Assembly (NCBI RefSeq): GCF_947623445.1
Contig: NC_135240.1
Coordinates: 28,086,001-28,150,000 of the forward strand
Source: Clavelina lepadiformis
Taxonomy: Eukaryota > Chordata > Ascidiacea > Aplousobranchia > Clavelinidae
DNA: 64,000 nt
Direction: 5' to 3'
Shown here: positions 2,740 to 40,840 of the stretch, in pieces
Numbering within the stretch: the first letter of the stretch is position 1
Layout of the letters: the number at the start of each line of letters is the position of its first letter
Made by a program: the position numbers and the translations under genes
The notes under the pieces: generated by a model
Databases searched by the model: none
The model's input: only the letters and a program-made list of their open reading frames with translations
What the model was told of the DNA's origin: nothing

Positions 2740-4039
2740 ATCGAAGAGGTAGGGGTTAAACCCATTGGGTGATTTGACAGGGAATGACTCTATAACAGTA
2801 TCGAAGTACAGTACCGCGATACGTTTTCAGTTTATTTTAAAGATACTTTATTCGGTTCCGATACTCTTAAAGTATTTATTTCAAGGTTTTGTGTAGCATT
2901 TAAAAAAATCATATTGATCAAACCTTAATATCCATTCTAGCACACTCAATTGTTCTAAGTGACGTCACGTATATTTTGAACTGGAGTTATTTGTGGTGGA
3001 GCATTAATAGAGGCAATTATTGCATTTACAACAGGATCCTCTATACAAAAAGTACCGATACAGAGTGCCAAACTACTCTTTTGAAACACGACTTTTAACA
3101 TGTATGGTTTGCTAACACTGGTTTCTATGTTTGTACGTATATCACATGTAGCTGCTTACAACCCTCAGTATTGCACTGTAATAGCCGAGTTAATAATAAT
3201 CGCTATGTTCTTTCAAAGTACCCACTACCCACCTCTGGCAATGAAACATCATTGAATGAATTGTTACAGTTTAACCTTCTAACACCACCATTTCAAGCAT
3301 ATCTTTTTCACTCTCTGGTGCAGACCAACTAATTATAAAAGAATAGTATAATACCGAATATAATATCAGAATTCCATAAAAACAAGATACACTACCACTG
3401 CATCAGCTTAAGATATACTGTATCTATGACAAACAAATAAAAACAGACAAATATAACATACCGCAAAGCCGAAACCACACCTGTTGATAACTACTTTGAG
3501 CTGGTTCCTACAACTGATAATATCTTTGTATATGCGTGCACCATAACCTGCTGGTTTTTTTTTAAACTCCTGATGGCAGGCCAAGCATGCTTATGCCTAG
3601 TTCATTAAGTTTGGAGTATGGCAGCTGCTGGTTGTTTTCACAGCTTCTGCTAGAGAATTTAATAAATAACACTGCAACCATTTCATAATAACCGTAAAAC
3701 TAAAACACTACAAAGGAAAAAACTTACAATATTTCTCATTAAATATTGCTCTGACTTCTTTTATTAGAATGTTTAAACCTGTAGAAGTGGATGATTTGTC
3801 CAAAATATCGGAAAAAAAATTGAACACAATTTAATTTTTAATGACAACACGGCAATCACAGCAATGTAAAATCTGCCTGATAAAAATTCTCCAAAATTTC
3901 AATAAGTCAATGCTTTTAATATATACTATAAATGAAACTAAAAACAGCCTGAAACTGTCAATAACTGCCATAGTTAAGCAAGTAATTTCTAAAAGTCTGT
4001 CATTTTCTTCTCCATCAATTTTTAGTACTCACAGCATTA
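2740..4039. other. Intergenic, no supported gene
   Basis: AT-rich sequence with short chance ORFs. Near 2795-2835 and 3045-3080 there are AGTACCG and ACCGATAC motifs that might be the worn ends of another small element, but I could not pair them or find a target duplication. Confidence 0.5.
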
Positions 4040-4047
4040 GTTATAAT

Positions 4048-5046
4048 TAGGGCCCGCAAAAGTCAATAAAGTCAAAAATTTTTAAGGACCTCGTCTGACC
4101 ACGAATCAAAGAATAAAGTTGTTTTCAGCACCTAGGGGGTTGTTTCTAAGAAGTTTATAGGTCAAAATAAAGTCAAAATTTACAATAAAGTCAAAATTTT
4201 CAATAAAGTCAAAATTTGTCAAAATATGGCTTTTTACAAAGTTTTTGTGTTTCTTGAGAGTAATTCTTGTAAAAATCCTCGTGGAAGCATTGTAAATCAG
4301 GAACTGCGACACAATTAAACCATATTAACCCATAAAAGCAGGAAATAAGTCACAATGCCCACTTGGATCAGCTGTAACTTTTATCGCAAATTGTCCATTG
4401 TTTATTCATTGTTACGTATTTAAATAATTCTTATAAAACACTTCCTCTTCATAAACGTGGTATTTTCGAAGATCAACAGTTTGGATTTTAGGAATAGCCT
4501 ACTGACATTCTGTAATACAAAAATGCCTAATCAAGCTAAATCGTCTTCAGCAAAAGTTAGACAGATTTGTCGAGATTTTTCTGATGAATTTAATGCAACT
4601 CCCGGGGGTGATTAAAGGTGCAATTTTTGCGAGGTTATAGTGAAGTGCGATAAAAAGTATTTTGTTGAAAGCCACAGGAAAAGTAAACGCCATCAAGCTG
4701 GATTGGAGCAACAACAAGCATTCCCTGTTTAATTTGCTGTTTATTAGAATTTACCATGCGGAGAAAATCGAGGCAAAGTGCCCTTTTCACAAGGACAAAA
4801 TAACACAAGCTACCTAAATCTATCGCCAAAAAACACGACACACTTTTTATAATCCATAAAACACCTTGACTTTTCGACAAAATATTACGTTTGGGTCTGA
4901 AATCGACAAAATATTATGTTTGGTTAACTGGAGGAAGAACTGTGGCCTCTACAAATAAGCAATTTCGTTAGGTCAAAATAAAGTCAAAATTTGATAAAAA
5001 TAAAGTCAAAAAAAATTTTTTTTAGGTCAAAATAAAAATGGCCCTA
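4048..5046. mobile_element. hAT element, internally deleted, 999 bp
   Basis: Ends are TAGGGCC and GGCCCTA as perfect inverted repeats, flanked by a perfect 8-bp duplication GTTATAAT (4040-4047 and 5047-5054), the diagnostic size for hAT. Both subterminal regions are packed with the short motif AAAGTCAAAA and relatives, typical of clustered subterminal transposase-binding sites. The interior holds a short transposase remnant on the plus strand. Confidence 0.92.
4523..4732 (+). pseudogene. N-terminal remnant of a CGGBP1/ZBED-like hAT transposase
   Basis: Starting at ATG 4523, the frame reads a short leader and then RCNFCEVIVKCDKKYF with SHRKSKRHQ: a C-x2-C pair followed by an H-x5-H pair. This matches the BED-like zinc finger of CGGBP1-type hAT transposases as I know them. 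A TAA sits just before the finger where a lysine codon is expected, and the frame ends at 4732, far short of a transposase. Catalytic parts are absent, so this is a relic that also helps identify the element. Confidence 0.65.
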
Positions 5047-5436
5047 GTTATAATCTTTAACTCCCTGTTTTTTAGATGCTTGATTCGTGTTTCAGTCACT
5101 CGTGCCTTTCTACCAGAGTTGCTTTCTCACCTTCTTTTTCCCAAAACTTCTTTTACTCCTCACTCAATTGTTTCTATTTTGTTGCCCATTGTCTATAAAC
5201 TTTTGCAAAGAAAACCAAACAGCGTAATTAAACAATTGAAACAAGAAACACTATTTTAGAGAAAACTGGCAAGCCAAACTATTCAGGGGGATGAAAACTA
5301 GAAAAATTAACAGCAGTTTGTTTTTTTTAATACCATGTAGCTATGATGTTGCTTAGAAGAAATAGCACATGCAAATGTTAAATCATAATTGATAAGTAAC
5401 ACAATTACGAAATGTATGCTGCTAATTAGTTATAGA

Positions 5437-5847
5437 CTACACAATTTTGCAAATTTTTCTATTTCTATTGCAATTTTTAACGTAATCTAAAGCAAGCAAT
5501 GTACCAATTCCGTCCTTTTTAAGAGAAGAAGAATACAAGTTATAGCCTGACACTCTTCTTTTGCAAGAAATATTTGTAGGCTTTCCGAGGGAACTAGCGC
5601 TGGTGGAATGTTCTGTCCAAGTATCTTTTATCCAGACCTAAAATACAAAAAATGTTCTTCCAAGTTGAACGATGATTTTTTAAAACTTTCTAGTTTTTAC
5701 TAAGATTAACCTTTTTGTACCTTCACTTGATTCTCGGTCAAATATGCTGAAACAGCGGCTTCAGCAACCCTGGGATCTGAAAGATCCCGCATTCCTTGTT
5801 GCCAATACTCAGTCATTAACTCTACCTGAGTAGCCAGCAGATCGAGT
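5437..5847 (-). CDS. Unrecognised gene, last two exons (partial)
   Basis: Two exons join with consistent phase. Exon A (5847-5721) follows an acceptor TGTAATAG, encodes 42 residues including ELMTEYWQQGMRDLSDPR, and ends in phase 0 at donor GTAC. Exon B (5637-5437) follows acceptor TGTATTTTAG, stays open for 66 codons (SGYNLYSSSLKKDG) and ends at TAG 5437-5439. The amino-acid composition of exon A is unlike the surrounding AT-rich chance frames. Upstream exons lie at higher coordinates but I could not identify them. I do not recognise the protein. A transposon origin cannot be excluded because the region is repeat-rich. The splice sites are inferred by reading, not from transcripts. Confidence 0.45.
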
Positions 5848-6954
5848 CTATTACAATAACATACGACCTTAACTAAAGAAAACGTTGGATGACTGGAATA
5901 CAATTCAAACATAACAACTTTGGTAAAACAAATTACTATGTGGGTTGCAAAAGTGTCCGTAATATTAAGACATACGACATACATACCAACAAACTATTCT
6001 ACAAATGTAATTCTTGCTTACATGTATACAAGTTACGCTAAAACATTTAACAATACATTTGTGTGAGCTTCATTGCCTTCATGCTTACCTCTGTCTTTTA
6101 GGCATTTCACTTTGAAAAAATAACGTAAAACTTCAGAATTAAATACAGTATACACCTAAAAACATTCACATTATAATTAAATTCAATTTTGTAAGAAGTT
6201 AACACTTTAAACACTGTACAACGGGGTCTTATGACTAATTTATTTTCTTTAGCATGTATACACTTATACAGTACACATGGTTTGTGTAACAATTTGTGAC
6301 AAACAACATGTTCTAATCTGGCAAACACACCAACTACTCACTGTGTAAGTATTCCGAATATAATACAGTATCTCCAAAGCTACAGTGATGGTGGGAGTTT
6401 GTAATACTACCAACTTCTAACATTTGTAGTTTAAGGCATGGAGAATTTTAAACAATCCCCTGTATGCGTAAAATATGGGCGAACTTCTGCAAAGACGGTA
6501 ATCATGTTAAGATTGAATGAAAACACTGATATACTGCCATGCAGACAGCAAACTGGCATTCTTGTCACCATTATAGTACAATACGTAGGCTCAGCAAGAC
6601 ACCTACGGGTCCTTAAGCAACTTTCTGTAATGGGTCCATGTAAGGAAAATATCCCTTTTAAAACTAATGTTTCCTTATTAACTGATATCATACTAATTTC
6701 AAAAACGAATTAGAAAAAGAATTGTAATTGAAACACACATCACATATCAATTCCAGGACCCAGAAATCTTCATATGACTTACACTAGACAATGATTTCTA
6801 CTGGCCCGGCTATCTTACTATTCTGTGTACATTGCTATATTTTGATTTGCTATTTGTTCTGCCCAACTTTGGAACTATTCATCGGAATCACTGCAAATAA
6901 GAAAACATTTTTTACGCCTTGCTCAGGAACATTTCAGCAGTAGAACCACTACGC
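5848..6954. other. No further supported gene; possible missing upstream exons of the 5.4-5.85 kb gene
   Basis: Several overlapping short frames on both strands (for example near 6107-6713) have no recognisable motif. If the minus-strand gene is real, its upstream exons should lie in or beyond this stretch. Confidence 0.35.
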
Positions 6955-7016
6955 ATCAAGCAGGGATTCACACCATTGCAAGCTTGGCGCTCTAATCACT
7001 CCGCTACTGTGCCAAC
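6955..7016 (-). repeat. tRNA-derived SINE-like head
   Basis: Read on the minus strand, TAGCGGAGTGATTAGAGC resembles a tRNA A box and, about 30 bases on, GGTGTGAATCCC resembles a B box. Spacing fits an internal RNA polymerase III promoter, but no cloverleaf with a good acceptor stem forms, so it is not a functional tRNA. The body and tail of the SINE are not delimited. Confidence 0.45.
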
Positions 7017-7351
7017 ATAGCCTACAACATTTTGCTCTACATATACAGTATTTCTTGTTAAGTTTAAGCACTACTTATTCTATTACAGAGCCTGTGGATG
7101 GTAGCAACATTTACCTGAAATCAAATTACAGATACTGCATTTTCAGTAGGTCAAGACAGTACCACCTTAACTACTATCAAAAATTATACTTTTCTATCAA
7201 CCTGTCTCGTACTAATCTAATATTACTAATTAACAACAGAATTTAGCGTTGAAACAAGAAACGGAAGTTGGGTTGAGCATTTAAAAAAGTGTCGGTGGGG
7301 TTTCAGGACAAAGTATTTAAAAGAGAATCATCAGCTTACTACACGTAAGTA

Positions 7352-23052: not shown

Positions 23053-23592
23053 GGCCTAATCAAAGAGATTTAAATACATGAGTAGAAACTTCTCTTTTGC
23101 GCATGACGTCATGTTTCTTTCTTTTATTCTCTTGGAGCATATTCATGAGCATATACATGCAGACGACGACAATGATTTTCAGATCTGTTTGCTGCTGGAA
23201 CAGATTAGTCTTATTATTAGGGTGCAGTTATTGGGATCCAATAGGTGTTAATTTTAATTGAAATTAATTAATGAAATCAGGTGGTAGTTTTAGGTTCAGC
23301 AATTAACTTAGTTTCAGTTCATTGAACTGATAATGCTGCTGTTTTGTATCAAGGCATGGCTTAGCCTACTTGAGTTGCGCGGGAAGATTTTTTCGTTCAC
23401 CACATTTAAGGTGAAAAATAAAATGAATGGATGAAAAATTTAGATAAACCGAGTCATATTGTATTGTTTCATCTGCGCATAAAATTACGCTCCACGCGCA
23501 GAATAAAAACTTTACAGATTAAGACTCAATAGTACAGGTCTTATGTTGCATGCAGGTTTTGAGTTATTGAAATAAGCTAAATAGTCTGAAAT
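23053..23592 (+). repeat. Left terminal inverted repeat of the THAP element
   Basis: Near-identical to the reverse complement of 40430-40808, then more diverged to about 40345. It includes 'GACGTCATG', a palindromic 'TTCAGTTCATTGAACTGA' and 'GAGTTGCGCGGGAAGATTTT'. The left tip carries an extra TAATC after GGCC relative to the right tip. Confidence 0.85.
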
Positions 23593-23656
23593 AATGGCAA
23601 ACTTGTGCTGTTTACCAATGTGCAACAACAGGTCACCTGCCGTGACTCTGTTTAAG

Positions 23657-23862
23657 CACCCGCTTCGTCAAGGATTAGCCCATAGGAAAGGGAAAAAGGA
23701 ATGCACGGATTACCCATTCGTATGGGCTAAAAAGAATATTTCCATCTTTCAAAGTAATTGTTGTAAGGCTAATCGTGTTGGAATGAGTAATCCATTTTAT
23801 GTGAAACTATGGCTGGTCATTGTACGGTGAAGGCTACTGCTGTACATTATTGAGATCTATAG
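23657..23862 (+). repeat. Left terminal inverted repeat of the 15.4-kb element
   Basis: The first ~140 bp are nearly identical to the reverse complement of the right end (for example 'CAAGGATTAGCCCATAGG'); similarity continues in blocks to 'TGAGATCTATA' at about 23862. Confidence 0.85.
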
Positions 23863-26033
23863 GCTGTTGTGTTGATACGAACTACAGCATAGTACAGTGT
23901 GATTACTCGTTAGTTTAGCATATAGCATAGGTTTATCTGTGCAAATGGCATTGGTAATGCAGTTACAACCGTTGGAGTGACTTCAGTGCATCTATAATAA
24001 ATAGTGTTATCTCGCATAAGGTAGGGCGCTGACGCACTTCGGAATTGACAGCTTTAGGTGCATTTTCGCACTTAATAATGGGGACAGAAGCTGCCAACTC
24101 AATTATTGGGTCTAACAGTGAACAACCAAAGGACGAACACAAGATCTTGCTAGAAACGACTACAATTAGCAGTCCGGGACGTTGACAATCACTACATGGC
24201 AATCATCATAGACGCAATATTTAACATTGTGACCCTTCTAGGCCTAGCCTAGTTGCAAACCTTCTAATATGTCGGTGCAGCACTGGACTACTGGTAAGTC
24301 TGTACTAAATGTCAGCACTAGATTATACCTATCTGTATACTTCTATGCCAAACTCTTCTATGGTTTGGGCAACTATCTCACCGGCTGCTAGCTATCCATT
24401 GTGGAATGCGTGGCGACTACATCCTCAAGATTTTTGAAGACTGTGCTTGCTACACCCGAACGTTTCACATGTAGACATTACCTCTTGAAAACGGAGCCCA
24501 CAGTTTCTGCATTTTGCCTACCAGACGGCAAAGTGCACCCAAATTTATTCATTCTGCACCCGGCCTTTCCATTACTGGCCATCTTGCAACCTTAATATCT
24601 TGTCGAAAAGTGCCATGATTTCCAGTCTGGCCTGATTCTGAATTCAGAAAAAGCTACTACAGTACATGCCCAGCCTGTTACGCTATTGGTATTTTTCTAG
24701 CCCACTTCGTTAGCCTGTGGCTGTTGAAGAAAACACTTCAAATATAAATATGGTAAACGACAATTAGGCTAGTCTGTCAATAGAAAGGTATGTTTACTCA
24801 GTGTTTAACGATTACAGTTGAGTAGTTGTGAAGATAACCTTGCTCTGCTGTCTACTTGTCGGGTCGTCTTGACTTTAACAAACACAAATAATTGATATTG
24901 ATTCCTCTTGATTGTATTATTTCTTAATCGGTTAAACATGTTGTTATATTACATCAACATTAGGTAGCATAATTTATCTTAAATTAGACTGAGTTTTTAA
25001 TAGAAATAAATAATGAAATAAACAAAAGGCTGTCACTAATTTGCCGGAAAACATCATGCGTTTGAAGCTATTTTTTACAGTTCCTTGTGAACCTAGCTTA
25101 AACATCATTCCATAATATACTGGTACGTGTTACTAACCTAAATCTTCCTTCCAGCAGGTTTAATGTAGCTTCAGTTAAACCTTAAATAACTAAAATCAAC
25201 TTTTTTATAACCTTTCTTTTAATCTAGCCGCCTTTTTTAAACAACAGGCTGCATGATGTACTTATAGTGATATTGACTCTTTAAACAAAACGGTGATACA
25301 GCAAGAGTGGCATAAATATAAATGGTCAGTTGTTTTCTATTGTTTGTGAAATTGTCATTGTCTGTGGTAGCGGGACGAAAAAAACAATGCTAGTCAGTGT
25401 AGTGTTATAAAATAAAATAAATTTCCACCAGCAAACAATGAGAGGGAAATGGCAGCAAAGCCCAAGGGCTTAAAATGTGCAAGGATATTGCAACCAAACA
25501 AAAAAGATGAATAAATGGTTAGTCTGGTCACTAATACCAGTAATACAGTATAAATAAACGCAATTATTAAAGTTTCATAAAATTCTTTTATGTTGGTTTC
25601 ACTGCTGCTTTGGATTTTGCTATACCTCTACATCTCAGAGCTGCATTTTACTTCTTTAACATACTGGTTACAGCGGTAGAGAGAATAAACAACTTCTATG
25701 GTACGGAATCACAACCTTTATCCTAGGATTGAGAAAAATCTTTGCACAGCTTGACTTGAGTCTTGATACTGACCTTGTCTTAGTCCAAGTTTCAACTTTT
25801 TTAATTGATTGTTTTATATTGTATTTCTCGAATTTGAAACTGTAGAATGAATTTGGAACAGCTAACTAGGACGGTAGCAAGCCGAGCCAGGTGATTTAAC
25901 TGCTACACCTTTGAGTTGGCATTTTGTGCATATTACAGCTAGTTTATAAGTAGCTGTTTGAAGATTAAGGTTTTCCTCACATCATACAGACTTTTATTAC
26001 AGGCACAGGATTTTAAAGACTAGATTAGACATC
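23863..26033. other. Left interior of the 15.4-kb element, no firm gene
   Basis: A 36-codon plus-strand frame from 24078 (MGTEAANSIIGSNSEQPKD) has coding-like composition and might be a first exon, but no partner exon was found. The rest is AT-rich without recognisable motifs. Confidence 0.35.
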
Positions 26034-29000
26034 ATGTATCAGCAGCCCCAGCGCCTGTGAGTTTTGTATAGTTCATACTCCAGTCCCTGTGTTCTCAATT
26101 GTAATGACATGAACTTTGTAAATATTTGCTGTTTATCGTAGTAGCAACTTAACTTAAATTGCTTAAATTTAACATAAAATGTCAGTATTCTATCTAACTT
26201 CTTTATAGGCAGATTAAATTTTACCCTTTTTTATAATAGTTGTTGTAAATCAGCGGTTCTTTGGGATATTACCAATCTATGCAATTCTTTCATGAACAGA
26301 AATTATATGCGCGAAAACGTTTTGTTGTTTATGAATATATTTTGTGGGCCACTTGCTAACCAGACCCAAAAAAATGTGTATAACTCCCACCTAACTCGGC
26401 GATAGGAGCTTTCGAGTATTAAATATATTGTTGAGCTGTGTATACTTTGTGTTTGTGATATATTTCATATCAAATTGTCGTGGCAAGCAAGTCACTGCAA
26501 CGGTATCCAGGTAAAAAATAGACAGTATGGGATGCACCCCCAGCTTGCTTGTGCGAATCACTCGTAAATATGGGTAACTTATGTATACTTGACCAAACGT
26601 TAATATAATCTTCAATGCTGTATTGTAAGTCATAAGTCACGGCACCTGTATCATAAATTTTTTGACATAGACAGATATTGAGACTGGGTATTCTCAACTT
26701 TTGTGCAATCGTATACAGTATATTTATATGTGCATTAGAAAGTATTCATGTTAGTTTGACTTCAGATATGGGTTTTACAGCTAATAGAAATTACACAACA
26801 ATATCTAAATGACTTGGTAGTGTGTCAATTTCAAATGACTATGTGCATACTTTTACTTAACTCCTCACTACTTGCAGGTTTGAATTTATTGTTGTTATTA
26901 TTAGACTAAAATATTTATAGCACAAGAATTTGCCTGTATGTTTACTGCAAATAGAAACTTGACCTACATGTCAAGGAATGGGAAAATTAAAAGGAGCAAG
27001 TACGTCTACTGTAAGATGTGGAAAGATGTACTTGGTTTCAAGTAGCCTACATCTTTTGGTTTGCTACTTACGTAGCATTGGTGATGACAAATGAAGTTAA
27101 GAACGGAACATATTGCATGTGTTTTGTCATTACTTACTGACATATTGCATATATTTTGTTGTGTTTCACCAGGCAATTATCAAAGTATCGTGAAGTAAAT
27201 GAGAAGAAAATACCAAGGTTTGGAGAAACACTTATTTGTTTTTTACACTTTTTTATGCAAAGTCTGTTTAAAAAGGATAGCTAATAAGATAGCAATAAAT
27301 TAGTTGTCATACCAGTTTCAAGCCTTAATACCAATAATTCGCTAATCTTAATCAGGGTAGTCCTGTTATTTTTGCTACATGGGCCAGCAATAATAGTGGT
27401 TACAATTTATTAATGATATATTTTGCATTGCATAGGCAACAACAAAAGCTAATTTTCGATATTGGATAAAAGGACCCAAAAAAGAACATGACTGGTTTGC
27501 CTCTTTTGCAAAACATTTGGTCCATTGTTGAACGCCAATACAAACAGTCACAGAATTACATGAGGTTCTGTGGGAGTTAATATAACTGCTACAAATCCTG
27601 AAATGCCAAGCACTAGTAATGTTAACAGTTCTTGTGGAGGTGAATGAAAGTAATTACTAATTAGTAAAGAGATTTCCAACATATTTGACATTTCTATTCA
27701 ATTTTTTTTACTGGAAATATTCACTTAACATTCACTTTGAATAATGAATATTGGTTTTCATTTTATCACAGGGTTGCAAGAAAACTTGAGTTACGAAATC
27801 AGAGAATCGGTTTTCAGATTGGCGATCACTTAAAGAAAAGTTGTTTAAGTTTTCCATAACCCTTTAATCGCCTGAGCGACACCCTTGCTGTGTCTGCTTT
27901 AAAGAAGTTGTCAACATAATGTGTGGTGGAGATTGTGGGCCAAAAGTATGTTACTGTTGTCAGTGCAAGGATAACTGTCATTCTTTTGTTTGGTATCATT
28001 TGCCAGACATATGGATGGTAATTAGAAACAATTACATTTTTTTACTTCCACTAAAACTAGTATTACACTATTTACTGTATAGAAATATTAAAAATAGGTA
28101 GTCAATCTTCACAAACTGCGAGTTTAACTAAACTTTCACAAATATTTGTATAATTATGTTCCTTGTTATTTATTTTCAGAAATGAGAGTGTAGCATTACA
28201 CTTTAAACCTTGCAGGAAAATTAATACAACATCCGTTAAAAGCAATAGCTTTGCAACCAGAGTCGTGTTCTTCTGCTGAAATGGCATCCTTTTCTTGGGT
28301 AGAAGAATACTCACTAAAACTACAAGAATACTATTGGTTGAAGTGAGTTGACTAAATGTTTTCTGAATGTTTACATTTCTCAATACAAAGTTTTTGTTTA
28401 TAAAATTTATGCTAGTTCCTGTTTGTAGATTGTATTGGAAAACTGAAAGTTGCGAAACTGTTGAACGTACAAATTTAAGTACTAATGCCTTTAGGAATAG
28501 AAGTATAGAATTAGAATTATGTATAATTGTATATGTATATATAATATTGTTAATTTGTAGAGAAAAAGTTGAAGGTCTGAGAGAGGACACAGCGTCTGAC
28601 ATACTTTCTGGAAAAGTTGACCAAATTGCTAAGTGAGTTGAAGGACATATCAGTGTTAAATTAAATTACTACAATAGCTCTCCATGCCAAAACCTAAACA
28701 AATATTGTAACGTCCCACTACTGCAATATAAGGAACCATTAAGAAAAGTTCCTGTGGTAAAGTTTAACTCACACATTGATGTTGGAAAGTAACAAATGAT
28801 ACAATGCTTACATATTTATCAAGTGCCATGACGAAAAAAAGAACAGAAATTTTGGAGAATATTTATTAATTAAATATTAAAAATTTTTTTTTGTCTACTT
28901 TCATTCAAAAATACCCAGGTAGTTTGTGCATGCACTATGCATAGAGGTACGTTATACAGGTAGATAAAGCTACTGTTCTATTGTTTCTAACTTAGTACAT

Positions 29001-29062
29001 GATGATTTTTCAGCTGGTTAAACAATTGTTCAACGGTTAGTGCGAAGCATCAAGAAGATTAA
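26034..29062 (+). CDS. Unrecognised eight-exon gene inside the 15.4-kb element (about 158 aa)
   Basis: Exons 26034-26056, 26955-26999, 27173-27217, 27772-27839, 28216-28342, 28429-28478, 28563-28632 and 29014-29062 join through GT-AG introns. All seven phase matches are correct and the total of 477 nt gives one open frame ending in TAA. The start at 26034 is the first in-frame ATG I could link and follows an acceptor-like TTTTATTACAG; an earlier start is possible. The N-terminal third is basic (MSRNGKIKRSKQLSKYREV, then KLELRNQRIGFQIGDHLKK). The middle is aromatic and acidic (SWVEEYSLKLQEYYW). The end contains REDTASDILSGKVDQIA. There is no signal peptide or membrane span. The basic start suggests a nucleic-acid-binding or nuclear role, but I do not recognise the family. 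It could be a captured host gene or an element gene. Confidence 0.6.
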
Positions 29063-31316
29063 CAAAAACATTCATCATTGGATAACTGTGTATAAAAAGT
29101 ACCAGAATGTTCCACAAAGTGATATGAAAAGCATAACTTTTTAAATGGTTGTCGGGTCTGGGCCAGTTTAAAATCAATGCCTGTCAATAGTAAATAGACA
29201 TAGTACCTATTCTTGCAGAAGGCTGTAAGGTTGTGAAACCATATGCGGTTACCCATCAGTTGCAAGCAGAGGTCGAACTTCTTTGTTTCATAAAGGGCCC
29301 AGTACCCTTTCAAGCAAATGGACCTAACGAAGACTGAAGATGGTGGACGTGAATAACCAATACATTTCTCTGAGCTTCAAGAAATTTTAACTGGATTTGG
29401 CTCGGAAAGCGAATGTTCAGATAACGAAGATGAAGATTAAACTAAGTAGTTTTAACCCATGCCAGTGAGCGAGTTATGCCACAAAATCACGTTTAAGTAG
29501 CTTGTTTCCATTTTTATACGCATTTTGGGTATTACACGTTCATCACATATACACTTGCCATATGTTTGTTTTGCCTCAGTAGCTTTTCTCAGGCAGTGAT
29601 AGTTCCTATGAAATATTTCAAAGAAAGAGTATGATGATTGCAAAAATCGGCAATGCCCGTTGACCTAAAACGAGCAAAGACTTGAACCCTTTGTTTTGCT
29701 ATAACGACGGCTACCCAACGCAGAAAGCGTTAACGGTAATACTGAACCAAATAATATTTATGCCGGAAAACATTTTTGAAAACTTAAAGAACATGGTTAT
29801 TGCACTTGCAGGAGTTGTTGATACGCACATGGATGGTTAAAATAAAACTCCGCTAAAAGAAACAGCATCCCAACGATTAAAACCCTTCTTCTGTGGCCAT
29901 AACACGACGTCAGGCCTTTAGTTGCACAAAAAAACATGCCAATAAACAAAATTTTTTAAAAGATTGAACCTGTATTTAGGTTACTACTGCTTATGATCAA
30001 CAAACTCCTCATTACTATACGTTTACTGGCCAAGGCAACAACGTTAAAAGTTTTTTAATTAAGTACAGGCTATAAGTTAAGGTTTACAATAAATCCCGTA
30101 GCTTTTCTTTAATGAATGACCAATGCACGATTCGGCTTAAAACAGTCCGCTCAAGAATGCAACTTGCAACATTGTTACGAGTCAATACTTAAACGATGTT
30201 GTACTCCCTTACAGCTACAACGATGGAAAATTTTTATTTCTGTGGCAAAATCTTCACCTAGTAAGTAACTAAAAAACTGTATTCGTCGTTGTGTGACCCA
30301 GCTGTTACTCAGCCCACCAAGCTAGATGTTGGGAAACGTGTGGAGTAACTACAGCGTTGTGTGGTGTCAACTGTCAATCAAACCCCGCAGATCATACCGA
30401 GTTTAGCGGATATGCCAAACACCGGTTAGCTAGGAGTTAAGTCGTACCCAGGCCATCCTGAGCAACAAAATCCGATTGTTTTGGACTGCGCGTCGGTACT
30501 GAATTTGCCAAGTCTGGGTAGGGTTTTCCTGCCACTCCATGTTTTATTTATGGTTGGTCCAAGAAGCCGCTTTGGATTTTCGGCTTGTTCTCGTAACTGA
30601 ATTTTGGTCGGTACCAACAGCTGTTTTGCTTTTAGTCGTCGGTATTGTATGTCTGCAAAGACAGAAAGCTTCGGGTGAAGCTGACGGGTTGGCTTTGTCG
30701 CCAGAAGAGCAAAGGAAAGAATGGCTTTATCGCGGTGAAACCCAGGAGGTTGGATGCCCGTAGCTTGTTAAACTGGCCGAACTGAACTGAACTGGCCGCA
30801 AGGAAGAGAATGTTCTCCAGTGGTGTGGGACCCAGATATCCAGTACAATACGTTAAACGTCGTAGTGTGCAAAACACCGTTTATGACAATATGTATTTGG
30901 TGATTGTGCGATGTAATCCCTTACACATGCGCAGGAAGCTACTCAGCGATGGGGTATAGTAGAACCACAGCTGTTGTACGAAGAGTAACAGCCAAGTGAC
31001 CATGCATGAGGTCATCATTTCTCTTTTCAGGGGGACCCGGGATGTACGTTTCTTGCGTAGTGACTCAAGTTATCGGCAAAACGTGAGCGAACTGTTCGAG
31101 ATTATTCCAAGATATTTGGGGTCTGGGCAGAAGAGCGCATAGATGTTTAAGGAGGACAAGGCTGCGGTGCCACATTGTATCATGGGCAGCTGTAAGTTGT
31201 AAAAGTACATCACCGGCCTTTTTCTTAGTTTTGAAGCTTTTCTTGATACCCTGGGTCATAAGAGTGATCTGTACTTCAGCCAGTGGGGAAGGAAGTCGAT
31301 TACGAGTAAAAAACGA
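29063..31316. other. Interior of the 15.4-kb element, no firm gene
   Basis: At 29350-29440 a short plus-strand frame ends in an acidic tail (FSELQEILTGFGSESECSDN). A minus-strand frame at 29059-29313 is rich in aromatic residues but overlaps the end of the eight-exon gene. Frames at 30426-30877 overlap on both strands. None has a recognised motif. Confidence 0.35.
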
Positions 31317-31430
31317 CTAAAAAAGACAATTTGTAGGCATAAAAATACTTACAATATTTCATATTAAAAGTTTAACAAACTTCTGTTTGCAGTTCATGTT
31401 TTTTTTTGTCTTGGAAGTATCACTCGACTC
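31317..31430 (+). repeat. ~110-bp direct repeat inside the 15.4-kb element, copy 1
   Basis: Almost identical to 34084-34192 in the same orientation, including 'GTAGGCATAAAAATACTTAC' and 'CTTCTGTTTGCAGTTCATG'. On the minus strand it contains a donor-like GTAAGT, so it may duplicate an exon edge of a minus-strand gene. Confidence 0.85.
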
Positions 31431-31439
31431 AGCGTAGAT

Positions 31440-33551
31440 CAAACGTTTGAGGACTTTCCAGAAAACTCGCAAAAGAGTTATGGGCGATAACTCTTTGGGT
31501 CCCCAAACGGTGCTTGAAGACTTGGGTCACGACGACAAAAGCTCTTCTTCACATTTTTAAATTTTATGGTGCCGCAAGTAGATAGCCGAAAGCTACTTAA
31601 CCAATACTTCAAGGCAGGACCGGCATGGAACTCTGGGCAGATGTATTTTAGACCCGGAACATTGATTGGCTTTGTTTGATGGAGGACGGCAGGGAACTCA
31701 TTTGGGGAGAAATGACCAGAGATGTTTTCGCCATCAGATGTTTCTAACCTCCAAAGGTCAAACACTTCTTTTCCCACAAGTCTGGTCCTTCTTTTCCTGT
31801 ATTCCGCATTTAGTCAGTTGTGTGGCGATCGTGTTGGATGAGAGAAGGGATGGACGAGGCAAGCGAACTGACCGGCCAGCGAGATTGTACTCCATTCCTT
31901 TCGGCTGCTGAACTGCGAGCAGTAGATAGTATTGAATTCGTAAAACCCTTCACTGCGCTAGCTTTTTTGTATTGAGTCTTTCCAAGAGCGAAGGGCTGCA
32001 TTAGCGGTGTCTAGAGAGTCGCCAGGTAAGACGAAATTTGGTAAAGGGATGGGATGTGACTCATAACGAGGTTGAAAGTCCTGCCAAGGTTTCCCTTCTG
32101 ATACACCGTTTTATAAAAGAAACCATTTATTTTCAGGAAATTTTCTTTTGATCAATCTTATCTACAATAATTGGCAAACCCAGAAACAAGGTTTTAAAAT
32201 GTGTTTTATTGATTTTGTTTTACCATGTAAACCTGAAAGAGGGCCAAAATGTTATACAATAAAAAGGCTATACTATTGTAAACGCATGTTGAACGTTAGT
32301 AAACAGTATTTTAAGTTCCGACGTGATATTGTTGGAGACATTTACGTAAAACTGGAAATTTATGGCCTTGTAGCGATTGAGCTCACCTACCACTTCGCTA
32401 ATATCACCCGAAAAGATGTCGTCCACCCATATGATAAGAGCTTTGGATTATATTGCATAGAACTTGCGTTGGTGGTTCCTTTTTAAAGTGGTGCCGGCAA
32501 GCGAGTCGTTTAAGCTTTACACTTCAAAAATCCGAAGCAGATGTTAATAATAGAGCGGAAACTTGCACGCGGACGATAACAAACAAGGTAAGGGTACAGC
32601 AAATTAACAGCTATGCCATCCGGCAACAACAAATTTATACTTTTACAGCAAATTTTTATACAAGGGGGTACACAGTTGTCGATGTTTAGACCAGATAAGA
32701 CAGTTGATGATCCGAAAACAAATTTCTTTCTGATTTAAACTTAACAATTTTCTTACTATTTCGTGGTTGTCATGCGGTGGGTATGCTAAAAAGGGGCGAG
32801 TAAAATTTTGAAGTTAACATCACGATTTTCTGTTATTAATGTGGTGACATCAAATTTGGCATGCGACCAACTTAACAAAGAAACCGTTTATCTTGTTTCG
32901 TCCATTTGTATTCGTATCGCAAAAGTGCGGCCTACATATCAAAGTTTTGCAGATATTGTAACTGCTTTTTAGTGTAAGTGTCAACCAACCAATTTAAAAA
33001 GGAATAATTTCACCAAGAAAATATGCCTTAATAGAAAATTACTTTACCAATTTAAAGCAGTGAGTCATTATCACTAAAAATGCTTTGATTCAGCAGAGTA
33101 TATTCCACGAAAGCACCGTCAAAAAGTGTAAAGCAAAAGAACGAAAATACTGAAGACAATAAAATAAAAAAACAACAAACAATTACATATGCATCCAATA
33201 TAGCTACAATTAATCAATGTTAACTTCTTAAAATTACGAAAATGCGGACATGAATGAAGGATGAAATCTTAAAATGGAATGATTGCAGCTTAAGTTAACA
33301 ACAAAATACTGTAAAAGGCGCACAGAACAAATGAAACCGTAGAAATATGGAAAAACAACGACCAGTAACTTTTCGCTCACCAATGCGTGTGTGATAATTG
33401 CATACCGTACAGTAAATTACCACAATAGATTGGCTTGATGAAATCATTGCACCGTCGTATGATAACGTAAAAATAACAAACATTACAAAAATAAGACTGG
33501 TAAATGATGTAATGTTTGATTAAAACACTGAATCATTTACAGATTTCCAAT
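31440..33551. other. Interior of the 15.4-kb element, frames of uncertain status
   Basis: Base composition is richer in GC from about 31440 to 32060 than in the neighbours, with minus-strand frames at 31478-31777 (99 codons) and 31810-32001 (63 codons) and a plus-strand frame at 32148-32486 (112 codons). No domain is recognisable. The composition shift may mark exons of another gene or a separately acquired segment. Confidence 0.35.
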
Positions 33552-34784
33552 CTACTGATCAATGTGTTGGTCTATCACCTCAGGAAAGTTCAAATTTTCT
33601 TCATTTTCACAATCATCAGTTATCATCAAAAGAACTAGATCTTTATCTGCCAGTTCTAAATTGCTATAAAGAGTATAACAGAAAAAGCACAGTGTAAAAA
33701 TTGTAAATTGTAATCTCTTTATCAATGCAAAGATTACAGAAATCACATCACTTACCCCCTTTTCAGAATCATAGTATTTTTTTGCTCATCAATACTTTTC
33801 TGGCAATCAACTGGACCACAGCTGCAGAGATTTTGAAATGGTATTCCACAAGGCATTCCAGTGATATTGAACTTGTTAATTTTAGCATATGTCAATGGGA
33901 TTTGTGCATTGTCTCACCTGAAAAGCACCAGATCAAAAATACCAAGGTATGCACAAAAACAACTTAATGTAATTAAGATGAAACAATTTCCATCAATTCT
34001 ATTTTATTTACCACATACATTCCATTGCTTGCAACAATAGGCAACACTAACGAAAACATTTCTCATTTTACACTGTTACGCTAAAAAAAGACAATCTGTA
34101 GGCATAAAAATACTTACAATATTTCATATTAAAAGTTTAACAAACTTCTGTTTGCAGTTCATGGTTTTTTTGTCTTGGAAGTATCACCAGCTGAATACAA
34201 ATATACAGAAAACATTACTTCTAACAAGAAATTTTTCATACTTCATGATTAACATGCTTAATTACAAAAGTTTACAAGAAAAGTACTACGAAAGTTCATT
34301 ATAATATATGCTTGCAGTATAGGTTAGTTAATCATGTTCTAGCAAATGTTTAGAAATGACACAGTTAATTACATAAAATTACCTTTTCAGCACTGTAAAA
34401 CCTCTATAAAGCCACTTAGATCAGTTTGCTCCAAGAAATATGCCCTTACATCCCTGTTTCAAAATGCATGGAATGTACCATTAACAAATGCCATTCCACT
34501 AACGGCCGCACCAGTTTCTTCAAGTTCATCACACTAAAACAAAAACAAGTTTCCTATGTTTGGTGTACACTGTACAGCACGGGTACAACATAGTATGGTA
34601 TACACAGCAACCTACAGCTTGAGTTATCGGAGCAATGGCATTCTTTCGAATTTTGTTTGTCATGTTTTCATCCAATTTACTTAGTGGCATACAACTTTCA
34701 GCATTAAAGATATTTGCTTTGTTATTTCCATAGTTGTTTTCTTCGGTTTGGAAGTTCTTTCCACTTGCAGGCAGAGTTTGAAAT
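33552..34784 (-). CDS. Unrecognised multi-exon gene inside the 15.4-kb element (3' part)
   Basis: Minus-strand exons 34784-34616, 34533-34479, 33912-33756 and 33663-33552 join through GT-AG introns with matching phase and end at TAG. Recognisable stretches include NKIRKNAIAPITQA, ELEETGAAVSGMAFVNG, GIPFQNLCSCGPVDC and an acidic tail DDCENEENLNFPEVIDQ. The third exon's acceptor is ambiguous (CAG or the GAG five bases on); only the second keeps the frame. A competing frame near 34380-34450 (DVRAYFLEQTDLSGFIE) may be an extra or decayed exon. 5' exons should lie above 34784, but I could not link them. No family is recognised. It is antisense to, and convergent with, the eight-exon gene. Confidence 0.5.
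34084..34192 (+). repeat. ~110-bp direct repeat inside the 15.4-kb element, copy 2
   Basis: Partner of 31317-31430; see that entry. It lies just below the 34479-34533 exon. Confidence 0.85.
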
Positions 34785-37700
34785 CTTGAAATACAACAAT
34801 CAAACATTACTACACAACATTTGAAAGCTTAATAAAAAAACTAAACATAAATTGAAACTGAGAAACACTGACAACTAGCAAGACATTACTTTATACAAAG
34901 CACCTGGATAACTTGTCTAAATAGTACTTTCACTGTTCAGCTGTGAACATAGTGAAACCTTCATTTATGTATATTAGCAAATTGCAAAGTAATTTAAGCC
35001 TCTTAAGCTTTAACAGTGTCAATCAGTATCTTTGGCTTTGTAACAAACAATGAACATAACAGTAAAACACAGTTTTGGAAATTTATTACACACATATCAT
35101 GTGAAGTCACAAACAGCATTCACTTCAAGTCATGTATACTAATCCAACTTACACTGTGACATAAATTTCACAATCAAACCTAGAAAATATAATTTCGACA
35201 TGCAAGTTTAGTAATGAGCACAGTTAGCATGAAATCAATGCATGCAACTTACCAGGTGAAAAATGATGTGAAGTTATATTGAGTGAGAACTTCGATTGTG
35301 TCTTTGACGGCATAATGCCAATGATTCATTGAAGCAAGCAATCAATTAAGCAAAACAGCCAGAATATCAGACCTTGTACATATCTTACATGAAATACAAG
35401 TGATGTTGTGTACAAACTTCTTCCTTGAAAATTTTTGAAAAAATCATGCAACTGCATAAAAACTACCAATTTTCAGTTCCTGAATAGAAGAAAAAAATAA
35501 ATTGTAGCCTGCGAGTGTTCTTTTTCGAAAAGGATTAACGCTTTGGATCTTTGGTTATATTTCTGCATTGTAATTGTAAATCCAACGTTAAAACACAATG
35601 GTTGTCAAAACGCTAGTAAACAAATAGCAATAGTTATAACTAGTGGCATTTAACACTCCCTCAAACAAGAAATCTAAAAAAGGACAAATTTTAATAATTT
35701 TGTAAGATCATGTAATAAACATGCAATTACAAAATACTTAAAGTTGGAGAGTTGTCCTGGACAACAAATGGTGCCTTCCTGTCCTTTGTAAAGTCAGTAA
35801 TTCAAAGTTAGCATTTAAAAAACGGACTAAAATTGACGAGGTAGTTGGATATTCCAAAATAATTCGAAGAATATGCAAAACAGATAACCAGAAAGTCAAG
35901 ACAGGCTTCAGAATTTCATGCTCCCAACTAGGGTAAAATTGGCACAAGAAAGCTTAGTAAAAGTAACATGTGAAAAAATGTTTTCAAGTTAAACAACTTC
36001 ATGCATTATAAATTTACTTCCAACATTCGGCGATAGCGAACTTTCACAATGTGCATCTGATGGAAGAATTCAGCAGGCAAACAATGCTTGGTGGTGGATA
36101 ATGTTGATTTCCAAATAATTTTGATTTAAGAACTTACAATACGAAATCAAATCAAAATACATTGAAAATTCTTCTTTACCCCTAGAAAATAATTACTACC
36201 ATCAAAAAAAAACTCTTTGCAGAAACCAATAAAACTTTCTTTTGTCTTAACACATTCAATAGAAGTAAATTTTGCTGAGAGCAGCATCTTAAATTGATCA
36301 GCACTACAATTCTCATATGGCAATTTCTGCCACAGCGTGTGCCTACTTATTCTGACTGCCGGTTGGTCACAATGTTTCGTTTTCTCTCTTTGAATTATTT
36401 TCTCCTTGTCCCGCTTGATGCTACTACTAACAACATGATCTGCAAATCAACAAGAACGTTCCAGCTATAAGAACTACACAGTATCGCTTAGTGGCTTGCT
36501 TACCATAGAAGGTCTACAAGTATATCGCCATTCTTCCTGTGACTTCCTGAGTAGGCGCAAACAATGTAAGCACAGCAAGATATATATGTTAAGCGAGTCT
36601 GGTTTCCCCAGCACAGACCTTGCGTCAGTGTCAAATACATGCCCAAGATACTTGACTGTGGCAATGACAGCAGCTTTGCCAATACACTTGTTGTTCTTAA
36701 CGACAAGAGGTAAATTGCCCATCACAGTTGAGCCAAGTGGTCAGTGAACTCAAGTGATGACGATCGACTAAACACATAAAGTAGTCTAAATACTACTATG
36801 CGGTGTACAACCTAGCGGTCGTGTACTCGGCCAAAAATTGGGAAACATTGAGCTGGCCCTTGGTCAAGACATGATCACTTAGCCATGGTGTATTTCCAAA
36901 ATTGGACAATAAAGCTCAACAATGAGTGTTAGCATCCATTTACCCTAACACCAAGGTAGCAAAAAGTGAGCTTAAAGCTAACATCAACAGCTCACCTTGT
37001 GACACCTTGCAGTAAATTTACATCTTTGGTCACCTCAAGTGAAAAAATGACTAATGGGCATGGGGCACCAAATCGACACTGTTATAGTAAACAGCATCCT
37101 GTGACTGGATGTAGAGCTATAGGACCCCACAGCATGACAATTTTTCTGTTTTTGTGAGCATTGAACCTGCTGGGCTTCAGTGCGATAGAGTCACTCCTTA
37201 CCTTGCACATTATTCAGCGGAGCCACTCTGATTGCTCCTCCCGAAACTATTTGCCTCAGCAAAAAAGCAAGCCGGATAAATAAAATCAAGATACCCATTG
37301 CTCACTGGCTCTACACTGCTAAGGATGGCGTGGGTGGAACTTAATTGCCTGCTATCTGGAGATGGTTGTTTCTGCTCAACCCTGTAAAAATAGGGAATGG
37401 CAAACATTGTAACTTGTGAACGTAGCGCAAAGGAGATTGCAAAATAAAGATTACAATATATCCAGCTATTGTATCCCCACGTTCCCCATGGAATACATAG
37501 TCATCAATTTTTGGATGGCAGCAAGACCCAGTTGTTACTTGACTCAAGCTCAAACATCTAGCTTGTGTTGCCAAATAACATCTTGCTCACAGGAAGCAGG
37601 CTGATGGTAAAACAGGGATATTTTGACACAGGACGTTGATTTTCTAGAGGCCGTTTATTATCATTTTTAATTTGTAATAATCTGCAAACTCATGAATGCA

Positions 37701-37929
37701 TATAATCGACAAATAGCACTCTTTAAAAACGATTGAAACCTTCGTTTGTCGAAAGTCAAGACAAATTAAATGATTGCCTTTTGCTTATGATCTGCATATC
37801 AGATGGATTTCCTTTTTGGAATACTAGAATGTTAAGTTGCTCTTTCACTCCACTCAGGATTTCGAAGTTCTCTGACAATCATACAAGATCACTGTACTCT
37901 GCAAGCTCGTTATGTAAGAAAGCAGCAAT
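34785..37929. other. Interior of the 15.4-kb element, probable unlinked exons
   Basis: A minus-strand stretch at about 35743-35800 reads TDFTKDRKAPFVVQDNSPTL before a GTATTT donor and looks coding. Overlapping frames at 36474-36747 and 37210-37604 on both strands have no recognised motif. This is where the 5' exons of the minus-strand gene would be expected. Confidence 0.35.
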
Positions 37930-37995
37930 GTTGAGTAGTAGCCGAATGGTTAGAGCTGGCAATTAGGCAGTGTTCACTACCCAGTAGCACTACCA
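37930..37995 (+). repeat. tRNA-derived SINE-like head
   Basis: TAGCCGAATGGTTAGAGC is a good A box; GTGTTCACTACCC about 25 bases later is a weak B box. No acceptor stem closes, so not a tRNA gene. A second tRNA-like fragment with a B-box-like GCCAGTTCAAACACC lies at about 38463-38512. Confidence 0.4.
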
Positions 37996-38824
37996 TTGTT
38001 ATGCCCTTGGGGTATTACCAATGCTTGCTCCAGTTCAGTGCTTCTGATAAACATACCTAAATCATTCAGAACTTGCTTAAAAGCTAGCCAGATAAGTGGG
38101 GCTGGAGCAATTAAAGATTACCACAAAGGTTAATGGAAGCGAACTAAATTGACATATGAAGTTCTAGATACTTCTATCCTATAGCCGCCAAATAAAGAAA
38201 ATCATGTCGATTGCTGTGAAACGCTTCGACCTTATGCCACACTGGGACTCTGGATAAATACAGTGGGTGAGTTAGAACTGCACGGACAAAGACCTTCCAT
38301 AACATGTTCAGCAGTGTATGCCGCGTGTATATAATTGATGCAATCACTCCAGCTTGAAGGCAAAACTATTTCAACCTGATGCTGAACAAAAGCACCATGC
38401 AATTACCACAATTCAATTTAATACAGTGCATGAGCACTGCAAACACGAAAAAGTGACTTTTGGCTACTAGAGTACCGGTCTATCGTTGGCTGGATTGCCA
38501 GTTCAAACACCATTGTGCATTGCACTATGTGCAACAATTAAGCAGTCTTTAGAACTTGCTTGGATTCTACATTCAGTAAGTAAGCATACAGCTATTCCAG
38601 TGCCTAGAAGCCCGAGGTAGATAACCTATATCTTGTCTACGAAACAGGACCAATTAAGCAGCGTTAATGCCAGACACACCAAACGCATGAAAGAACTGAA
38701 ATCGAAAACTAGGCTATTTTGTTCATTTCAGCCTTTTCAGATTTTTAGTGAGATCCGTTTATAGTTTGTGCAAGGCATTCCAACGTGCATCAATCACTAT
38801 ACAAACCTTATCCATACATTCCGG

Positions 38825-39075
38825 TATAGATCTCAGTAGTCTACACTCTACACCAGTAGCCTAAGCCATCCAATCGTACCGTACGATGACCAGCCACAGC
38901 AGTTCGACTGGATTACTTATTCAACCCACCGCTCGTTTGGATTACTCATTCGAACACGATTAGCCTTACAACAATTACTTTAAAAGATGGAAATATTCTT
39001 TTCAGCCCATACGAATGGGTAATCCGTGCATTCCTTTTTCCCTTTCCTATGGGCTAATCCTTGACGAATGGGGTG
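38825..39075 (-). repeat. Right terminal inverted repeat of the 15.4-kb element
   Basis: Reverse complement of 23657-23862, with about 35 extra bases around 38905-38940. The tip reads GGGTG at 39071-39075, followed by GTTTAAG. Confidence 0.85.
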
Positions 39076-39370
39076 GTTTAAGATATCTTCGAGAAAATTT
39101 GTAAAAAAGGAGAAGGAAAGCTGGGCAGAAAGGTTAGAGTGTATCGTGCTGGCTTGCAGAAGCGACGACCACATAAACAAGCTATTTGCTCGAGATGCTG
39201 TGAAAATGTGTGAAGTGCATTTTGAAAGATCTGACATCGTTTTAAGTAAAATTTGTTTTACATACACTTACATGTAGTGTAACTAGTGTATTGAGGAAAG
39301 ATATTTAATTTAATGGCATATCTAGCGTTTGATTTCCTTGAGATGGTTTGATGCAGAACTTCATTAAACT

Positions 39371-40191
39371 TCATGGAACTGTAAGATGTCCATAATTGTT
39401 ATTATTTAAAGCGGAAATCGAGGAACTATTAGTGGTTTCATTACTATAATCAGTTAAACAAGACAATAGATCTATTTCTCTCGGATTTATACAGCGCTTA
39501 GTGAGTTTCTGCAAAATATAACCACCTATGTACTGAATTATGAATTCTTCGTCTCGGCTTAACTTGTGTAATGTCAAGTGTTTCCCCTTTTTGTTGTGTG
39601 CAACAGTGGTAACGTGTGATAAAAATACATCAAACAATTTTCGTGTTAAACATAGTGACAATTTTCTTGGTAAGAAAAATAGTGATGGGATTCACGTAAT
39701 TCCATCACATGAGAATTTATGAAACAGTTCATCCGGTGAATTGTAGGAAGAAAATAGCTTCATAAAATAGTTAACCGCATCTGCAGTTAGATCTGTTTTA
39801 ACGCCACCCACCATTCCATCAGCTTTTCTCTTGTAACATTATTGCAAGAAGATTCTGCAAGACAAGTGTAAAATTAAGTTTACTAGATTTTTTTAACCGG
39901 AATCTGCCAATGATAGAGCTCGAAATGAAATAAGTTTCAAAAAAAAAAATATATACCATGAGCAGTTTTTTGATGAGCGAGCAAAGTTTCATTACTTGTG
40001 CAGTTATGCAAACATTGTCCACATCTGCAAATACATATTTTCATTATCAGATTAAATGACATCAATATATCAGTACAGTATTTCTTCAAATATTCGTTAC
40101 GACTTACATTAATTTGTTGTTTTGCTTGGCTGTTTAATATAAATTGGCGAGAACGTACACTCTGGGTGACCGCCATACATGACAAGCTCAA
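39371..40191 (-). pseudogene. Minus-strand coding remnants inside the THAP element
   Basis: The frame 40191-39937 contains CRCGQCLHNCTSNETLLAHQ, a cysteine/histidine cluster resembling a C2H2 finger. The frame 39661-39371 contains SRDEEFIIQYIGGYILQKL, a hydrophobic-helix motif like those near the C-terminus of several DNA-transposon proteins. They lie in different frames with stops between. They could be the ends of one deleted transposase or accessory protein reading toward the THAP frame. Confidence 0.45.
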
Positions 40192-40344
40192 CAGCAGTTG
40201 GCTAACTGATTAATAGGCATATCGTATCTTACATAAAGTTTGCTGCATCGTCTTCTGGGTCACAATCTATTTCAATAATTAACTTCAAATTGACATCCAT
40301 TAGATCCCAACAACTGCACCACAATAACAAGATTTTAAATCAGA

Positions 40345-40808
40345 CTTTCAGTAGCCTATTTTAATGACACAACACCTGCAACATAAGGCCTATGCTAATC
40401 AGTTTAGTTGCTAATTGCCTGGTCGAAGAGAAATGTGGGGAATGAAAAAATCTTCCCGCGCAACTCAAGTAGGCTAAGCCATGCCTTGATACAAAACAGC
40501 AGCATTATCAGTTCAATGAACTGAAACTAAGTTAATTGCTGAACCTAAAACTACCACCTGATTTCATTAATTAATTTCAATTAAAATTAACACCTATTGG
40601 ATCCCAACAACTGCACCGTAATAATAAGACTAATCTGTTCCAGCAGCAAACAGATCTGAAAATCATTGTCGTCGTCTGCATGTTTATTGTTATGTAGTGA
40701 ACCGTGACCGTGGAGAAAGTAGAATATGCTCCAAGAGAATAAAAGAAACAAATATGACGTCATGCGCAAAAGAGAAGTTTCTACTCCTGTGTTTTAATCT
40801 CTTTGGCC
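40345..40808 (-). repeat. Right terminal inverted repeat of the THAP element
   Basis: Reverse complement of 23053-23592. A partial second copy of one block ('GTGCAGTTGTTGGGATCTAA' in reverse complement) at about 40255-40330 indicates a local tandem duplication near the inner edge. Confidence 0.8.
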
Positions 40809-40810
40809 TA

Positions 40811-40840
40811 ATCACCGGCCTTAAATTGTGTTATGTAGGA
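40811..40840 (+). repeat. 51-bp-unit repeat family, copy 2, right part
   Basis: ATCACCGGCCTTAAATTGTG continues directly from the left part at 23052, as judged from the uninterrupted minus-strand copy near 58385-58425. It ends abruptly at the start of the duplicated SUPT7L fragment. Confidence 0.8.

Follow-up and report, generated by a model that had tools for sequence, protein, structure and literature searches.

The question raised by this locus is what kind of element occupies the 15.4 kb that split a THAP-bearing open reading frame (ORF) in the sea squirt Clavelina lepadiformis. The window, by which we mean the whole 64-kb stretch analysed, corresponds to C1:28086001-28150000 of a 209.06-Mb assembly; for the published C. 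lepadiformis assembly the part of the source available to us gives 210.1 Mb and 9 chromosomes (PMC10884593). An earlier, sequence-only reading of this DNA had described the segment as a single insertion of unknown class. The class can now be named, since full-length relatives with the same ends encode a transposase of the Kyakuja-Dileera-Zisupton (KDZ) type, and the segment is very probably a large KDZ DNA transposon that became non-autonomous through a deletion. Its boundaries, in window coordinates, are as follows:

23657-39075, no strand assigned: non-autonomous KDZ-type element of subfamily A, 15,419 bp, delimited by terminal inverted repeats (TIRs) and a target-site duplication (TSD), with three further whole copies and 34 of 39 sites without the insert
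23650-23656, no strand assigned: left copy of the TSD GTTTAAG, present as a single copy at empty sites with the joint aligned
39076-39082, no strand assigned: right copy of the TSD GTTTAAG, from the sequence
23657-23794, plus strand: left TIR with the tip CACCCGCTTCGT, from repeat search and copy alignment
38938-39075, minus strand: right TIR with the tip CACCCCATTCGT on the minus strand, from repeat search and copy alignment

The 7-bp TSD brackets one insertion with the inverted ends CACCC...GGGTG, which begins with CACCCGCTTCGT and ends in ...ACGAATGGGGTG. The repeat search returned inverted arms at 23651-23794 and 38938-39081 (144 nt, 95% identical), which include 6 nt of flank and leave a TIR of 138 bp. 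Insertion as one unit, the CACCC tips and the direct repeat GTTTAAG had all been read correctly from the sequence; inverted arms are likewise present, but the lengths of ~206 and ~251 bp proposed for them were not reproduced as ungapped arms. Sites without the insert are paralogous sites in the same assembly, located with a right-flank query (39083-39500, 40 of 84 candidates scored) and a left-flank query (23408-23656, 40 of 58 scored). At 34 of the 39 scored right-flank matches (window excluded) the match abuts a left-flank match with 0 bases between, while the other five have no listed left partner. The joint could be aligned at eight of 11 fetched empty loci, and all eight read ...CTCTGTTTAAG^ATA..., with a single copy of the TSD. 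The prediction that the THAP ORF rejoins in frame without the insert was borne out by an uninterrupted copy.

Three further whole A copies (C8:13924202-13939652, C8:13626732-13642181 and C3:158464-173914) match the window copy at 99.58-99.59% identity across 15,394 aligned bases, and their flanks differ. Between the copies A2 on contig C8 and A4 on contig C3 there is no difference in 15,451 aligned bases, yet each has its own TSD, which indicates that copies without a transposase moved recently. A fifth candidate place for subfamily A, C5:5181106, was rejected as a whole copy: it is a lone 759-bp fragment (C5:5181082-5181840, element positions 4170-4928, 99-100% identical) without ends. Pairing of ends further defined family B, with at least 21 elements of 19.9-21.3 kb and the same ends as the window copy, and family C, with at least five intervals of 17.7-29.0 kb; the intervals were paired by hand and only part of the end candidates was scored (e.g. 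40 of 132), so that these are minimum counts. Over ~12,900 aligned bases family A shares 85% identity with the three B copies that were read (B1, B2 and B3), and the window copy is assigned to the KDZ elements by its ends, namely by the same TIRs, the 7-bp TSDs and this identity to the B copies. With the interiors of A and B aligned, the two types of TIR tip (CACCCGCTTCG and CACCCCATTCG) occupy opposite ends, for which exchange between the arms is a possible explanation.

The catalytic domain itself was found in family B. The KDZ transposase family PF18758 matched in three stretches of copy B1, together with CxC2/CxC1 of Pfam, and genome-wide it has 52 places at E<=0.01, compared with none in 14 control genomes. 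In copy B3 eight core transposase exons with AG/GT borders give an open reading of 385 aa; seven core exons were recovered in B1 and B2, where the anchor of the eighth is changed. A spliced family-B model, with the cysteine exon of B1 placed in front, matches KDZ with E=5.2e-45 over positions 4-210 of the 217 of the profile, and the CxC cysteine cluster (PF18803/PF18802) with E=3.8e-12. The same core exons are spanned by a public C. lepadiformis protein, P0001 (740 aa, 97% identical, 30 member sequences), in which PF18758 is also matched, and P0006, from family C, has 51% identity to the family-B query. All three B copies read are damaged: a stop interrupts a core exon of B1 and the cysteine exons of B2 and B3, and the last core exon of B2 contains one base too many. 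This counts against the explanation, in that a working source of the transposase is presumed only. In a tree of 40 of 100 homologues, hand-picked for spread, the sea-squirt rows group with Ciona inside an animal clade that holds fish, including a Xiphophorus protein that we take to be Zisupton, while eight fungal rows stand apart. This tree has long branches, is midpoint-rooted for drawing only, contains one EukProt entry within the animal clade and has no labelled Kyakuja or Dileera rows; it was used solely to place the sequences in the animal clade, apart from fungi.

That the 15.4 kb could be a host segment flanked by two separate small miniature inverted-repeat transposable elements (MITEs) was an objection already raised in the sequence-only reading, along with the absence of a second copy and an assembly join within the interval. 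Small elements of ~500-550 bp with the same ends do exist (e.g. C6:16854461-16854961 and L005-L008; on a cursory look, a clear 7-bp TSD pair is seen in L007 only), but three other loci carry the full 15.4 kb at 99.6% identity with different flanks, and one common TSD brackets the entire unit, which is missing from the empty sites described above, so that the MITE explanation is scarcely credible. The three whole copies also contradict the second objection. As for the third, no assembly join is marked in the window, since it contains no N run. Spread of the copies by segmental duplication instead of transposition could be argued from the two A copies that lie ~300 kb apart on contig C8 and from copy A3, which has no clean TSD. 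However, the similarity of the A copies stops within a few bases of the tips, no common flanks were aligned, and the TSDs differ between copies but match within them, which makes duplication very improbable. The TSD lengths, whose collection had been suggested as a check, are exactly 7 bp in 16 of the 19 whole copies checked across the three families, that is in six of seven whole A or B copies (by eye), in eight of ten further B copies and in both family-C copies. This sample comprises all four A copies, 13 of the 21 paired B copies and two of the five C intervals. The three exceptions speak against a uniform 7-bp duplication: A3 (L011/L012) and the copy L074/L075 have no matching TSD and are perhaps recombinants between copies, and L062/L063 shows one mismatch.

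A giant self-synthesising or captain-driven element, such as a Polinton or Starship, or a virus-like insert would fit the length of 15-21 kb, and nothing else. Pfam scans of the window copy in six frames, and of part of the strands of family B, turned up no family of polymerases, integrases or tyrosine recombinases, nor any enzyme family of Polintons, Starships, Tc1 or hAT elements, and the enzyme found in the relatives is a KDZ transposase; this alternative is therefore as good as discarded. The flank L017, beyond the element, has one hAT-like match (E=0.012).

If the segment is a KDZ element, the question remains why the window copy looks empty. Its six-frame Pfam scans gave no family at E<=0.05, in agreement with the earlier statement that no enzyme can be recognised inside, and this is so because the catalytic core is deleted there: the window copy has 118 bp where B3 has ~3.75 kb holding the KDZ core exons. 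What is left of the transposase gene is partly decayed, with two exons still open:

27435-27644, plus strand: decayed N-terminal transposase exon with three in-frame stops and 59% identity to the family-B piece
27868-28017, plus strand: open transposase exon, cysteine-rich (CxC-like), with 78% identity to family B and without a Pfam match when taken alone
28025-28142, plus strand: 118 bp in place of ~3.75 kb (B3 element 3460-7207), the core deletion that makes the copy non-autonomous (alignment of A with B3)
28215-28343, plus strand: transposase C-terminal exon, open, 88% identical
28559-28654, plus strand: remnant of a transposase C-terminal exon, one stop
28783-29434, plus strand: decayed transposase C-terminal exons, several stops and frame breaks

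Since the window copy is without the transposase core, it must be moved by an enzyme made elsewhere. The KDZ transposase of B-like relatives would act in trans on the CACCC...GGGTG ends, cut the element out and paste it into a staggered cut of 7 bp. The insert also contains an 88-nt direct repeat (31319-31406 and 34084-34171, 98% identical, 2.77 kb apart), and sequence related to it is present in the other A copies and in family B. No Rfam match was obtained at the gathering threshold.

Upon comparison of families B and C, four conserved segments on the minus strand were found besides the transposase and its antisense strands. Because family C is distant from B, protein segments kept in both mark genes, and the minus-strand segments assemble into a second gene, hereafter gene 2, which both of these divergent KDZ families carry. 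Its product opens with a homeodomain-like part, which is followed by an HMG-like segment, a middle part and a single TFII-I (GTF2I) repeat. Roughly a third of the residues are common to gene 2 of B and C, and over 254 codons the proportions of synonymous and nonsynonymous differences (pS 0.77, pN 0.45) are as expected under protein constraint. A codon-pattern scan of A against B in ungapped blocks yielded mostly short windows and did not reveal gene 2 by itself. The window copy retains the following pieces of it:

35468-35587, minus strand: end of the homeodomain-like part and start of the HMG-like part, one stop (comparison with gene 2)
34616-34804, minus strand: HMG-like exon, diverged (comparison with gene 2)
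34384-34533, minus strand: middle exon, two stops (comparison with gene 2)
33755-33895, minus strand: open exon for the second half of the TFII-I (GTF2I) repeat, with 72% identity to family B and no Pfam match when taken alone
33558-33662, minus strand: C-terminal exon (comparison with gene 2)

The spliced genes on both strands that had been proposed are thus confirmed, with the transposase on the plus and gene 2 on the minus strand, although what this copy retains of them is decayed. A second KDZ-derived piece lies elsewhere in the window, at 3600-5852 on the minus strand, and consists of family-C gene 2 remnants (homeodomain-like, HMG-like and later exons) that are 49-95% identical to P0105 and contain stops.

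The assignment of the repeat rests on profile and structure-database matches. The first GTF2I match was weak (E=3.7e-4), and GTF2I was matched in six of eight proteins scanned, of which four pass the Pfam cut-off of 27 bits: the spliced B model (33.5 bits, E=5.3e-8), the spliced C model (35.3 bits, E=1.5e-8) and the public proteins P0102 (37.3 bits) and P0103 (36.0 bits). The B and C models were typed by hand, and the C model was read across a frame break. All seven matches of the repeat segment in the PDB at E<=10 are TFII-I or GTF2IRD1, and a two-family profile gave 11 PDB matches at E<=1, nine of them TFII-I or GTF2IRD1 (best E=6.9e-7) and the other two homeodomains. The 11 PDB matches of P0105 at E<=1 are homeodomains without exception, and a single one of them, the best (0.0098), is under 0.01, while the N-terminal 140 residues of family-B gene 2 found no PDB match at E<=1. 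A predicted Clavelina protein, P0107, joins the homeodomain-like and HMG-like start of gene 2 to a DUF7041 part, which is either a gene fusion or an annotation artefact.

Several results weigh against this picture of gene 2. P0101 and P0104, both without the first half of the repeat, stay below the GTF2I cut-off, and the GTF2I piece of the window itself has no Pfam match. The homeodomain PF00046 also falls short (18.1 bits against 22.9 in C, E=0.0025, and none listed for B), and the HMG match, below its cut-off with E=0.26, is a mere suggestion. As we read it, the donor after the second gene 2 exon is not GT in B3, but it is GT in family C; the public Clavelina models P0101-P0106 support the gene piecewise, and none has all exons. 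Finally, the homologues found, four at E<=0.001 and seven at E<=10, are all from Clavelina, with none outside it in a search that needs shared exact 5-letter words and that distant relatives may therefore escape.

The genomic distribution of the repeat bears on whether gene 2 belongs to the element. Of 31 GTF2I places in the genome, five are above the cut-off as single exons, and the 26 below it detract from this count. Nevertheless, 25 places lie between both ends of an element, one in each of the 21 B intervals and four in four of the five C intervals, although these 26 intervals make up 0.25% of the genome. Two more have one B end nearby, ~7.1 kb away as is usual (in both one-end intervals a length of 21 kb is assumed), those at C3:23641584 and C3:23709309 come after gene 2 exon sets, and C6:5723881 adjoins a gene 2 exon and a transposase exon, so that C3:14652749 is the only place not assigned to an element context. 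GTF2I had no match in the 14 control genomes, a result that says little about animals. Another subfamily has gene 2 exons at C7:2638518-2640415, ~8.5 kb from KDZ exons at C7:2626385-2630026.

It is quite conceivable, though we lean the other way, that gene 2 is not an old part of KDZ transposons but host cargo, a TFII-I-like gene of the cell that the element took up. The restriction of the known homologues to Clavelina, within the reach of the word-based search, would fit such a capture. Against it stand the presence of gene 2 in both B and C with about a third of its residues in common, the exons next to the KDZ exons of the further subfamily on contig C7, and the finding that, at the sensitivity of a single-exon profile, no free-standing host TFII-I gene was recognised, with 30 of the 31 places in an element, gene 2 or transposase-exon context. 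The gene 2 product would be a DNA-binding accessory protein of the element, for recognition of the ends or for transcription.

How the Clavelina element relates to known KDZ systems depends on which feature is considered. With Zisupton of fish and other animals it shares a KDZ transposase with a CxC cluster, a multi-exon gene and TIRs, whereas Zisupton, as well as a Dileera family, has a TSD of 8 bp instead of 7 bp according to the part of the source at hand (PMC12730594), and the second gene with a TFII-I repeat sets the Clavelina element apart. By contrast, the 7-bp TSD and the 5'-CA...TG-3' ends agree with Kyakuja, known from fungi and algae, for two fungal families of which these features are reported in the same partial source, but both families are without TIRs (PMC12730594). 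Zisupton elements of Pristionchus resemble it in the multi-exon KDZ gene, the TIRs and a recent expansion, while their TSD is described as not detectable in the section of the article available (PMC9297572), and 7 bp are found repeatedly in Clavelina. The Clavelina element combines a 7-bp TSD, CA...TG and 138-bp TIRs and is placed in the KDZ superfamily, not in a sub-branch. With respect to the TFII-I family (GTF2I, GTF2IRD1), gene 2 shares a full GTF2I repeat above the Pfam cut-off and the sequence matches in the PDB, but it has a single repeat next to homeodomain-like and HMG-like parts and resides inside a transposon. A TFII-I repeat also meets a DNA transposon in GTF2IRD2, where, as far as the accessible part of the source states, an element of the hAT type is fused to a mammalian gene (PMC10641963), unlike in Clavelina, where KDZ elements carry the repeat.

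The window element alone is of a known kind, and what is new in the family is the TFII-I-bearing gene 2. Tunicates are the sister group of vertebrates, and we know of no explanation for the source of TFII-I. Since TFII-I has been called vertebrate-specific, at least in the portion of the source consulted (PMC9900109), and the repeat occurs in tunicate transposons, an origin from a transposon becomes testable, and these elements are a concrete candidate source for vertebrate TFII-I. Among the matches listed, terms for KDZ, Zisupton or Kyakuja were not found together with GTF2I or TFII-I in the open-licence literature. The presence of the repeat in these transposons suggests either that the vertebrate TFII-I genes come from such an element or that an element took up a chordate gene, which Clavelina then lost. 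A more far-reaching proposal, which we consider rather unlikely and put forward tentatively, is that chordate KDZ transposons have long carried a DNA-binding second gene with a TFII-I repeat, and that vertebrate GTF2I and GTF2IRD1, the Williams-Beuren genes, would have arisen by its domestication and by multiplication of the repeat in the vertebrate stem lineage. Independently of this, the split THAP ORF is a clean natural record of animal KDZ transposition, with ends, a 7-bp TSD and empty sites, and it includes a 15-kb element that would have been moved in trans.

The sequence into which the element inserted has boundaries of its own:

23061-40805, no strand assigned: outer THAP-bearing TIR element, ~2.3 kb without the insert (inverted arms 94-97% identical, TSD)
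23054-23060, no strand assigned: left TSD GCCTAAT of the outer element (sequence)
40806-40812, no strand assigned: right TSD GCCTAAT of the outer element (sequence)
23594-23656, plus strand: first part of the THAP ORF (MANLCCLPMCNNRS...), from the uninterrupted copy L038
39083-39277, plus strand: second part of the THAP ORF, from alignments of empty sites and the uninterrupted copy

The THAP ORF sits between the inverted arms 23061-23407 and 40431-40805, the element is flanked by its own 7-bp TSD and has CA...TG ends, and its left flank has 39 other matches among those scored. These arms, the second TSD and the further matches indicate that the target of the 15.4-kb insert is itself a multicopy TIR element, and the insert is a transposon inside a transposon. 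The interrupted "THAP gene" of the sequence-only reading is accordingly a THAP-bearing ORF, but it is part of this multicopy element and was not shown to be a host gene; its Pfam match is weak and below the cut-off (E=0.0022 in L038). By its THAP domain and CA...TG ends the outer element presumably resembles P elements. In all other copies listed, the matches to its right part stop at or before ~39371 (query position 289), and right of this position the window copy of the outer element differs from them.

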